Made by a program: the position numbers and the translations under genes. Below are positions 59,203-62,853 of a DNA stretch of 64,000 bases, in pieces (the first letter of the stretch is position 1; the number at the start of each line of letters is the position of its first letter). Under the pieces are notes generated by a model. It was not told the origin of the DNA, made no database searches, and saw nothing but the letters and a program-made list of their open reading frames with translations. This stretch comes from Blautia sp. (GTDB lineage Bacteria; Bacillota; Clostridia; Lachnospirales; Lachnospiraceae): the NCBI GenBank assembly GCA_022769545.1, contig JALEJS010000034.1, positions 78,088-142,087 of the forward strand, in the 5' to 3' direction.

Positions 59203-62200
59203 CTAAATTCTAGATACTCCCATTGTTACCTTTTCTTTGTTGATGTTCCATTCTTTCACATAGCCTTCGGCTTCTCCCAGCACGATATTTTCCGCGAGAA
59301 CCTCCTGGCCGATCTGTGCTTCATGGGCGCGGATGATATCCGCAATCTTATCATTATCTTTGGCATATACACAGATCTTATCCATCACTTCAAAGCCTGC
59401 TTCTTTTCGCATGGTCTGAATCTTGCTGATAATCTCTCTCACAAAGCCTTCCTCAATCAGCTCTGCCGTCAGATTGGTGTCAAGCACCACAGACACATCG
59501 CCATCTGATTCTGTCACAAAACCTTCGCTCTGTGCGGTCTCGATCAGAAGGTCTTCCTCTGTCAGTTCCACATCATTTCCGTTGATATCCAGCTTCAGAA
59601 CACCGGATGTCCGCAGCTCCTGCATTGCCTTCGTTCCGTCAATGGTATTCAGCGTCTGACGGATGCCTCCGAGAAGCTTTCCGTATTTCGGGCCCACAGT
59701 CGGAAGGTTTGGCTTAAAGCTGTAGGAAATGAACGATTCCACATCATCTGCGAATTTTACTTCCTTCACATTCAGCTCATCTGCAATGATATCTGTAAAG
59801 TAGGAATCCATCTTCTTTTCTGCTTTGACATACATGGTGCCGATCGGCTGACGATTCTTGATGTTCGCCGTGTTTCTGCAGGCACGTCCCAGAACGACCA
59901 CCTTCAGAAGCTCTTCCATGTTTTCTTCCAGTTCTCTGTCAATCCATTCTTCTCTGGCTGTCGGATAATCACAAAGATGAATGCTTTCCGGCGCAGACGG
60001 ATCGATTCCTCTGACCAGATTCTGATAAATATCTTCTGTCATGAACGGAATCATCGGCGCAGCAACCTTGGAGACGGTTACCAGCGCGGTATAGAGCGTC
60101 ATATATGCATTGATCTTATCCTGCTCCATGCCCTTAGCCCAGAAACGTTCACGGCTTCTTCTGACATACCAGTTGCTCATTTCATCTACAAATTCCTGGA
60201 GAGCCCTTGCACTTTCCGGAATCTTGTAGTTTTCCAGATCCTCATCCACTGTTTTGATCAGAGAATTCAGCTTAGAGAGCAGCCATTTGTCCATAACCGG
60301 AAGACTGTCATAGTCCAAAGTATATTTCGTAGCGTCAAAATTGTCAATATTGGCATAAAGCACAAAAAATGCATAAGTATTCCACAGTGTACTCATGAAT
60401 TTTCTCTGACCTTCCACAACAGCCTTGCCGTGGAAACGGTTGGGAAGCCATGGTGCACTGTTAATATAGAAGTACCAGCGGATCGCATCTGCACCGTATT
60501 TTTCCAGGGCCTCAAAAGGATCCACCGCATTTCCTTTGGATTTGCTCATCTTCTGTCCGTTCTCATCCTGCACATGTCCCAGAACGATGACGTTCTTATA
60601 CGGAGCCTTGTTAAACAGCAGGGTAGACTCTGCAAGAAGAGAATAGAACCATCCGCGGGTCTGGTCTACCGCCTCAGAGATAAAGTCTGCCGGGAACTGC
60701 TGCTCAAACAGCTCTTTATTCTCAAACGGATAGTGATGCTGTGCAAAAGGCATTGCCCCGGAGTCAAACCAGCAGTCAATCACCTCCGGTACACGGTGCA
60801 TGGTGCCGCCGCACTGCGGGCAGCGGATGGTGATTTCATCGATATACGGACGATGCAGCTCTACCGTTTTTGCCGCCTCGTTTCCGCTCATCTCAAACAG
60901 CTCCTGACGGCTGCCGACAGAGTGCATATGACCGCATTCGCATTCCCAGATGTTCAGTGGTGTTCCCCAGTAACGGTTACGGGAAATTCCCCAGTCCTGA
61001 ACGTTCTCCAGCCAGTCTCCGAAACGGCCCTTTCCGATGCTTTCCGGGATCCAGTTGATGGTATTGTTGTTGCGGATCAGATCCTCCTTCACTGCGGTCA
61101 TCTTAATAAACCAGGATTCCCGGGCATAATAGATCAGAGGCGTATCACATCTCCAGCAGTGCGGATAATCATGCTCAAATTTCGGTGCGTCAAACAGCTT
61201 GCCTTCCTTTTCCAGATCCACAAGAATCAGCGGATCTGCCTTCTTCACAAAGACACCTGCATAGGGAGTCTCTGCCGTCATGTTTCCCTGTCCGTCCACA
61301 AACTGAACAAAGGGGAGGTCATAATCACGGCCCACACGGCTGTCGTCCTCACCGAATGCCGGCGCGATATGAACGATACCGGTACCGTCGCTCATGGTAA
61401 CATAGTTGTCACAGGTCACAAAATGTGCTTTCTTTTTCTGCTTCGCTGCTGCTTCTCCGGCGCAGACAAACAGCGGCTCGTATTCCTTATATTCCAGATC
61501 GGTTCCCTTATATCTCTCCAGAATCTCATAGGCCGGTGTTTCCTCCGAACCCAGCTTTCCGAGAACCTTGTCCAGAAGTGCTTCTGCCATATAATAGGTA
61601 TAGCCGTCTGCAGCCTTTACCTTGCAGTATGTCTCATCCGGGTTCATACAGAGCGCCACGTTAGACGGAAGTGTCCACGGAGTGGTCGTCCATGCCAGGA
61701 AATAGGCATCCTCTCCTACCACCTTAAAGCGCACGATGGCAGACCGTTCCTTGACCGTTTTATAACCCTGTGCCACTTCCTGTGCAGAAAGAGGCGTTCC
61801 GCAGCGCGGACAGTACGGCACAATCTTAAAGCCTTTATACAGAAGCTTCTTATCCCAGATCTCTTTCAGAGCCCACCACTCAGATTCGATATAATCGTCG
61901 TCATATGTTACGTAGGGATTATCCATATCTGCCCAGAAACCTACGGTAGAGGAGAAATCCTCCCACATTCCTTTGTATTTCCAGACACTTTCCTTACACT
62001 GCTGGATAAACGGTTCCATCCCGTATTCCTCGATCTGTTCCTTTCCGTCCAGCCCAAGCTTCTTCTCAACCTCCAGCTCAACCGGAAGGCCATGTGTGTC
62101 CCATCCGGCTTTGCGGGGAACCATATAGCCCTTCATGGTACGGTATCTGGGGATCATATCCTTGATGGTACGGGTCTCTACATGACCGATGTGGGGCTTA

Positions 62201-62355
62201 CCGTTGGCGGTAGGCGGTCCGTCGTAGAAGGTATAGGTCTCGCCTTCCTTACGGTGTTCCATACTTTTTTTGAAAATGTTGTTGTCCTCCCAGAATTTCT
62301 CGACAGCTTTCTCACGGTCTACGAAATTCAGGCTTGTGGGTACCTGCTTGTACAT
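59203..62355 (-). CDS. ileS: Isoleucyl-tRNA synthetase
   Basis: A 1050-residue class I synthetase that charges tRNA-Ile. GKPHIGHVETRTIKDMIPRYRTMKGYMVPRKAGWDTHGLPVE contains HIGH (55-58); KMSKSKGNAVDPF near 602 is the second ATP motif. The editing domain lies between. The length and the long C-terminal anticodon and extension domains fit the eukaryote-like type II IleS, which is often less sensitive to mupirocin; this is a family-level inference. It is preceded by a T-box leader, and the glgP gene follows after 11 nt. Confidence 0.96.
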   Translation of the reverse strand: MYKQVPTSLNFVDREKAVEKFWEDNNIFKKSMEHRKEGETYTFYDGPPTANGKPHIGHVETRTIKDMIPRYRTMKGYMVPRKAGWDTHGLPVELEVEKKLGLDGKEQIEEYGMEPFIQQCKESVWKYKGMWEDFSSTVGFWADMDNPYVTYDDDYIESEWWALKEIWDKKLLYKGFKIVPYCPRCGTPLSAQEVAQGYKTVKERSAIVRFKVVGEDAYFLAWTTTPWTLPSNVALCMNPDETYCKVKAADGYTYYMAEALLDKVLGKLGSEETPAYEILERYKGTDLEYKEYEPLFVCAGEAAAKQKKKAHFVTCDNYVTMSDGTGIVHIAPAFGEDDSRVGRDYDLPFVQFVDGQGNMTAETPYAGVFVKKADPLILVDLEKEGKLFDAPKFEHDYPHCWRCDTPLIYYARESWFIKMTAVKEDLIRNNNTINWIPESIGKGRFGDWLENVQDWGISRNRYWGTPLNIWECECGHMHSVGSRQELFEMSGNEAAKTVELHRPYIDEITIRCPQCGGTMHRVPEVIDCWFDSGAMPFAQHHYPFENKELFEQQFPADFISEAVDQTRGWFYSLLAESTLLFNKAPYKNVIVLGHVQDENGQKMSKSKGNAVDPFEALEKYGADAIRWYFYINSAPWLPNRFHGKAVVEGQRKFMSTLWNTYAFFVLYANIDNFDATKYTLDYDSLPVMDKWLLSKLNSLIKTVDEDLENYKIPESARALQEFVDEMSNWYVRRSRERFWAKGMEQDKINAYMTLYTALVTVSKVAAPMIPFMTEDIYQNLVRGIDPSAPESIHLCDYPTAREEWIDRELEENMEELLKVVVLGRACRNTANIKNRQPIGTMYVKAEKKMDSYFTDIIADELNVKEVKFADDVESFISYSFKPNLPTVGPKYGKLLGGIRQTLNTIDGTKAMQELRTSGVLKLDINGNDVELTEEDLLIETAQSEGFVTESDGDVSVVLDTNLTAELIEEGFVREIISKIQTMRKEAGFEVMDKICVYAKDNDKIADIIRAHEAQIGQEVLAENIVLGEAEGYVKEWNINKEKVTMGVSRI

Positions 62356-62386: not shown

Positions 62387-62540
62387 TCATACTATTCAGC
62401 GCCTCATTCACAAAATCGCATCTTCGATGCTTTCCTTTTGTTCATTGAGGCTAGCTCGCCAAAGAAATATTTTCAGAGGTTCTTATGAATGCAAGCATTC
62501 AACGATCCTCTGTCAATATTTCATGGCTCTGAATAGTATC
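62387..62540. repeat. Structured inverted-repeat element between T-box and ileS
   Basis: An 11-bp outer inverted repeat (ATACTATTCAG at 62389-62399, CTGAATAGTAT at 62529-62539) encloses two extended hairpins. One is 62401-62451 (GCCTCA, ACAAAA, GCATC arms with complements). The other is 62464-62522 (GAAATATT, AGAGG, GAATGC arms with complements). As RNA this would be a three-way junction. The terminal repeats and compact structure suggest a small non-autonomous repeat (MITE-like) inserted in the leader. I recall similar sequence in intergenic regions of other Lachnospiraceae, but could not check. Confidence 0.6.
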
Positions 62541-62816
62541 AAAAATAGCTCCGTCCCGTAACAGGACGAAGCTCATGCATTCGTTAACCACCTCTTACAA
62601 CATACTTCCCATACGATTCCACATGTGTAATCTCACAGGAGTGATATGCTTCCCGGTAACGGCGGGATTCCGTTCAGAACTACTGACCTGGGCTTTTGTT
62701 CTGACAGCTCAGAAGTGATTTTCACGATTCCCTTACTCGCACCGGTCTCTCACCATCACCGGCTCGCTTTGCCTTTCTGCGGAAAAGTTACTCTCTTCGT
62801 CAATGCATTTTTGATA
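62540..62816 (-). promoter_or_regulatory. ileS: T-box riboswitch leader of ileS
   Basis: The minus-strand leader contains the 5' GAAGAGAGTAAC element and a specifier region with GGAATCGTG, giving the Ile codon ATC. The T-box sequence AGAGGTGGTTAACG follows (62581-62597), with TGGT to pair with the tRNA-Ile ACCA end. The terminator is AGCTTCGTCC / GGGACGGAGCT (62547-62573) followed by ATTTTTG. Uncharged tRNA-Ile would stabilise the antiterminator and switch on ileS and the co-transcribed glgP. Confidence 0.85.
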
Positions 62817-62823
62817 TACCGCT

Positions 62824-62853
62824 ATTATATATCTCATTTTTTTGCGTTGTCAA
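62824..62853 (-). promoter_or_regulatory. ileS: Promoter of the T-box-ileS-glgP transcript
   Basis: Minus strand TTGACA (62848-62853), 18-nt spacer, TATAAT (62824-62829), placing the start at the 5' end of the T-box. Confidence 0.75.

Follow-up and report, generated by a model that had tools for sequence, protein, structure and literature searches.

What is the strongly structured stretch of DNA that separates the T-box terminator from the ileS coding sequence in Blautia sp. (contig JALEJS010000034.1)? Within the window (the whole 64,000-nucleotide stretch of DNA that was analysed), a first-pass annotation had marked a compact repeat here and offered two readings of it, a MITE-like repeat with terminal inverted repeats (TIRs) or a structured RNA affecting ileS translation. 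Our analysis favours the first and puts the probability of a non-autonomous MITE of the IS66 family (ISBst12-like group) at roughly 0.88.

A structured element in the ileS leader

The element and its neighbours, all on the minus strand, are as follows.

62388 to 62540, minus strand: the whole element (MITE), 153 nt, a three-way junction; match of covariance model R1 with 137.7 bits, aligned with 30 homologues.
62525 to 62540, minus strand: left TIR, GATACTATTCAGAGCC (family consensus GTAACTATTCAGAGCC); inverted repeat, invariant columns in the 31-sequence alignment.
62458 to 62527, minus strand: hairpin 1, long, with the tip TGCTTGCA at 62490-62497; fold and helix covariation.
62401 to 62451, minus strand: hairpin 2, ATGARCAAAAGGAAAGC..GAA..GCGATTTTGTGAAT; fold, helices 5 and 6.
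62388 to 62403, minus strand: right TIR, GGCGCTGAATAGTATG on the minus strand and CATACTATTCAGCGCC on the plus strand (family GGCTCTGAATAGTTAC); inverted repeat and alignment.
62547 to 62573, minus strand: intrinsic terminator hairpin of the T-box, a neighbour outside the element; terminator scan, 12 pairs.
62559 to 62812, minus strand: ileS T-box leader, a neighbour; RF00230 at 78.1 bits (E 3.1e-17), short of the gathering score of 93.
59203 to 62355, minus strand: ileS, 1050 aa, the downstream gene; open reading frame and translation.

The element starts 6 nt past the terminator stem, a further 32 nt separate its end from the ileS start codon (62355), and its sense strand is the ileS mRNA strand. 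Since 62547 is the last base of the terminator hairpin and the RF00230 match covers 62559-62812, it lies outside the T-box, as had been proposed: the T-box leader is its immediate upstream neighbour on a common transcript, whereas the element follows the terminator and has no part of the T-box model in common with it. Given its place between terminator and start codon, the element is expected to be transcribed only upon T-box read-through. Upstream of the T-box is a perfect (12/12) promoter, TTGACA-18-TATAAT (window 62824-62853, minus strand). In the same assembly, a contig end (G000 contig C41:229-849) carries the start of another ileS, with a standard T-box of its own; the first 207 residues are 87% identical, and it is either a genuine second ileS gene or a product of mixed binning.

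As RNA of the minus strand, 62387-62540 is predicted to fold with -62.5 kcal/mol, against a mean of -30.3 for shuffled sequences (z = -9.9; reached by 0 of 200 shuffles), which bears out the claim of structure beyond chance; the plus-strand fold gives -56.9 (z = -8.65). The inverted repeat, put at 11 bp by the first-pass annotation, is real and longer, with 15-nt arms (62389-62403 and 62525-62539) that are 93% complementary and 121 nt apart, within TIRs of 16 nt each. The predicted fold consists, as described before, of an outer stem and two multi-segment hairpins (62458-62527 and 62401-62451). The outermost GCCA of hairpin 1 overlaps the left TIR, giving an alternative pairing, and the base of hairpin 2 overlaps the right TIR by 3 nt. 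In the family alignment (A1) the conserved GCC of the left TIR has two possible pairing partners, the right TIR and the TGGC that closes hairpin 1, and TGGCGAGAAGCCA could make a small hairpin of its own in many family members, so that alternative folds are possible. A scan for promoters and terminators found only weak promoter-like matches inside the element, and the one real terminator that it detected belongs to the T-box; a promoter- or terminator-carrying role was thus rejected.

A dispersed family with conserved ends and covarying hairpins

A plain DNA search of the window's genome and genus returned no further copies, and the family becomes visible only through its outer-arm pattern and a covariance model. 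The pattern CTATTCAGNGCC-N95..125-GGCNCTGAATAG, which specifies nothing but the outer arms and the distance between them, matched 79 stretches among the GTDB species genomes, where by our own estimate chance would give less than about one. Seventy-seven of them are homologous in their interior, share the same architecture and all come from Lachnospiraceae or other Clostridia; the interiors of the other two (L160 and L192) differ. The hosts include Fusicatenibacter, Butyrivibrio, Hominifimenecus, Eubacterium ramulus, GAM79 and many metagenome-assembled genomes, several of them multicopy, and the family termini read GTAACTATTCAGAGCC ... GGCTCTGAATAGTTAC. Within the window's genus, the family covariance model found 13 close copies (75-92 bits) in one genome (G035) and 35 weaker matches, part of the matches to several sub-families, in another (G010), and just the single 137.7-bit copy in the window's own genome. 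The search for copies, proposed earlier as a check, thus yielded no second copy in the genome itself and homologous copies across Lachnospiraceae and other Clostridia. No match to the element was found in plasmids. The family is below threshold in Rfam 15, and no mention of it was found in the literature searched.

Several observations accompany this survey. Nine records labelled 'Bacteriophage sp.' (fecal contigs, including MT839705.1, MT838621.1 and MT839733.1) contain copies of the element, three of which span at least 80% of its length at 74-78% identity; these copies are either phage-borne or lie on bacterial contigs that were entered as phage. Several other sub-families of the MITE, 145-194 nt in length and with very long hairpins (L256-L284, from G035, G010, G002, G026, G055 and G048), have the ends GTAACTATTCAGCC, GTTACTATTCACAGCC or GTAACAGTTCAGCC and show 8-bp duplications too. 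Many copies (among L146-L224) start within a few bases of an upstream stop codon, the median distance of MITE copies to gene 3′ ends is 10 nt, and the element's own GTAA often provides the TAA stop of the upstream gene (offset -4).

The flanks of the copies carry the trace of transposition that was to be looked for. Flanking direct repeats peak at a length of 8 only, 21 of 78 copies having at least 7/8 identity where a cross-pairing control gives 0.66%; among copies in the window's genus the figure is 7 of 9 (control 9.6%), with ATAATATT, AATTTTTT and CTTTAAAA as examples. The flanks of the window copy (CTATTTTT vs ATGCTGTA) hold no recognisable 8-bp duplication, which is likewise true of many undoubted homologues; a duplication of its own is expected for young copies only and is not needed for MITE membership. 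Its outermost bases are GATA/TATG, not GTAA/TTAC, and still largely pair with each other. The IS66 transposase (PF03050) is absent from the window's assembly, which is 91% complete. Because the copy is single, has lost its duplication and lacks an IS66 transposase in the same assembly, the best reading is that of an old insertion no longer able to move, a stranded fossil of the family.

The window element aligns over its full length with the 30 homologues, and in this 31-member alignment 26 of the 46 predicted pairs have changed on both sides. Paired cells reach 95.8% (82.2% when shuffled), and the covariation score is 0.380 against 0.125 for shuffled alignments (0 of 500 reached it) and at most 0.068 for slid partners, so the helices proposed from the single sequence pass the covariation check. 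The outer stem is invariant except at its tips, as expected of transposase-binding ends, and the two hairpins covary. In the matching helices of hairpin 1, 18 of 20 pairs show changes on both sides; in helices 5 and 6 of hairpin 2, 5 of 11 do, and the inner stem covaries strongly. The fold also appears to have a strand. Where a pair is predicted on both strands, there are 56 cases of G-U against 24 of A-C, and 62 of 68 members fold better as the sense strand than as its complement; together these point to a family that folds as RNA of one strand, with column-wise sign tests being weak (p about 0.07 and 0.09) and the members related.

The same alignment bears on coding. A frame ending KRKASKMRFCE, noted earlier across one hairpin, does exist as a 13-codon, ATG-led frame (MNKRKASKMRFCE), and its ATG is kept in 23 of the 31 members. 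The other 8 have no ATG, stops or frameshifts break the frame in several members, and amino acids change along with the compensatory base-pair changes; a conserved peptide is thereby refuted, and there is next to no chance that a short peptide gene accounts for the element. What is left is a short, 153-nt sequence with neither a transposase gene nor a conserved frame.

Could the element nevertheless be a cis-acting RNA, a second regulatory domain of the ileS leader that tunes translation or mRNA stability? It is placed for such a role, on the ileS-sense strand between the T-box terminator and the ribosome-binding site, and its very stable fold, its strong covariation and the strand preference just described all indicate folding as RNA. 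Clostridiales-1 RNAs (RF01699) moreover occur at the same place in two relatives, with remnants in two more. The element itself, however, is missing at ileS from every other genome of the genus examined, whose leaders have no such element at this spot or have different repeats there, and its homologues adjoin unrelated genes at many loci, in either orientation (27 with the genes and 14 against) and with transposon-type duplications. In the predicted fold of the whole leader, too, the element remains unpaired with both the terminator and the ribosome-binding region. We therefore consider a cis-acting RNA of ileS very unlikely; neither the proposed effect on ileS translation nor a regulatory role at ileS is supported. 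As for the spot itself, over-cut-off RF01699 copies lie between T-box terminator and ileS in G050 and in G011 (two in tandem), RF01699 fragments lie there in G006 and G052 (loci L077, L083, L085 and L059 for G006, G050, G011 and G052), and other repeats fill it in further species (L089, L096 and L080); the spot behind the ileS T-box terminator is a possible insertion hot spot. No empty orthologous site could be aligned among the genus's ileS leaders, which are too diverged for such a comparison.

IS66-type elements with the same ends

Autonomous elements with the ends of the family do exist. Lachnospiraceae bacterium GAM79 contains two identical 1817-bp elements with the TIRs GTAACTATTCAGCACC / GTAACTATTCAGAACC and perfect 8-bp duplications (ATTTTTAT and GTTTTTTT), which encode an intact 485-aa IS66 transposase as a single ORF (NF033517, 263 bits; PF03050). 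A third, homologous IS of 1796 bp, located on an IMG/VR contig, shares these ends and is flanked by the duplication CTATGGCA; the fourth, of 1824 bp and from another Lachnospiraceae genus, has similar ends and no duplication. ISDge4, an active IS66 element of the ISBst12 group, has the ends GTGACTACTCAGCA / GTAACTGCTCAGCA and makes an 8-bp duplication (PMC12898284). Set side by side, the family end GTAACTATTCAGAGCC, the IS end GTAACTATTCAGCACC/AACC beside the PF03050 transposase and the ends of the window copy (GATACTATTCAGAGCC / CATACTATTCAGCGCC) match. The ISBst12 group (ISDge4 and the GAM79 element) and our family thus have in common TIRs of the form GTAACT(R)(Y)TCAG(C/A) and 8-bp duplications. 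Unlike these IS, the element is only about 150 nt long, has no transposase gene and carries in its interior a conserved, covarying structure; nor does the interior of the MITE derive by deletion from the IS found, whose 340-nt leader is different. Matching ends and duplications suggest that the family was most likely moved in trans by a single-ORF IS66 transposase.

Other candidates were rejected. Presumptive IS units delimited by TIR pairs in GAM79 and Hominifimenecus (L245-L247) proved to be ordinary genes with a separate MITE on either side, and the ends of an IS66 element of Fusicatenibacter (L250) and of another in GAM79 (L251) do not match the family. In a PF03050 scan of nine genomes, the domain was found in two and not in the other seven (the window's genome and six MITE carriers), some of which have dozens of TIRs; since most MITE-bearing genomes examined are thus devoid of such a transposase, many copies look stranded.

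Structured repeats of the MITE or REP type, such as RUP, ERIC and NEMIS, are known in bacteria as short, gene-less, palindromic, intergenic sequences that are co-transcribed and foldable; their sequences and transposase families are expected to differ from those of the element. In the scenario that we favour, the TIRs GTAACTATTCAG(A/C)(G/A)CC of our gene-less element would have been recognised by a single-ORF IS66 transposase, which, acting in trans, would insert the element into T- and A-rich intergenic sites with duplication of 8 bp. One copy would have entered immediately 3′ of the terminator U-tract of the ileS T-box, ahead of the ribosome-binding site, and would now be stranded there, single, with an unrecognisable duplication and with no IS66 transposase in the assembly. 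On T-box antitermination it would be transcribed and fold, within the ileS leader, into a stable three-way junction; we expect it to be near-neutral for ileS.

Relation to Clostridiales-1 RNA

The nearest described RNA is Clostridiales-1 (RF01699), graded 'RNA? y, cis-reg? n, switch? n' (PMC2864571), and the element might be a divergent sRNA gene of that family with a function of its own. RF01699 matches the window element with 32.8 bits (E 2.1e-5) and six of the eight tested family loci on the same strand with 30.9-38.7 bits; the family model in turn finds RF01699 elements in matching orientation (15-27 bits), and the window's genome has 17 over-cut-off RF01699 copies and many fragments. Both have a three-way-junction shape, a long hairpin with a TGCTTGCA tip and a dispersed, multicopy distribution, and both use the same insertion spot at ileS (RF01699 in relatives). 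All the matches, however, are below the gathering score of 48, and the model scores as much as 30-40 bits even against the antisense strand of its own family, so that shape alone gives part of the score. The RF01699 consensus has three hairpins, of which the middle one is absent from the two-hairpin element, and the ends differ (TGAT and a 5-bp duplication for RF01699 copies, GTAA and 8 bp for our family). Homology of the interiors is accordingly likely but unproven, and the element is not filed under RF01699.

RF01699 itself, furthermore, behaves like a mobile element. Sister species within the genus have from 0 to 35 matches per genome, and among 7 full-length copies with the boundaries TGATRNNGGGGTCAAAA ... 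GGTATCA, 5 are flanked by perfect 5-bp duplications (TGATA, TATTA, TGTTA, TTATA and TTATA), in a small sample of T/A-rich targets where a five-copy control gives 27.5% chance identity. This indicates that RF01699 is a dispersed mobile repeat, and, taken with the differences above, makes an RF01699 sRNA gene with its own function a highly improbable explanation of the element. The RF01699 copies (L014-L030, L117-L144 and L285-L291) look MITE-like, with the ends TGATRNNGGGGTCAAAAG and many truncated copies.

A more speculative idea, to which we give only a modest chance, is that an RNA-level three-way-junction core has been selected and carried in Lachnospiraceae by two or more unrelated types of transposon, one IS66-type with 8-bp duplications and the other Clostridiales-1 with 5-bp duplications. 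If this were true, an Rfam RNA family would be a class of mobile structured RNA, and the fold, not just the ends, would be under selection, for example by insulating or stabilising the transcripts that it enters.

Returning to the IS66-type MITE, the structured feature in the ileS leader would be a transposon remnant, not to be modelled as a part of the T-box or as a regulator of ileS. Recognising Clostridiales-1 'sRNA' as a mobile repeat would change the annotation of its many copies and the way in which covariation is interpreted for families of this kind. The element also names a widespread family of structured MITEs in gut Lachnospiraceae, for which ISBst12-type IS66 elements are a plausible mover.
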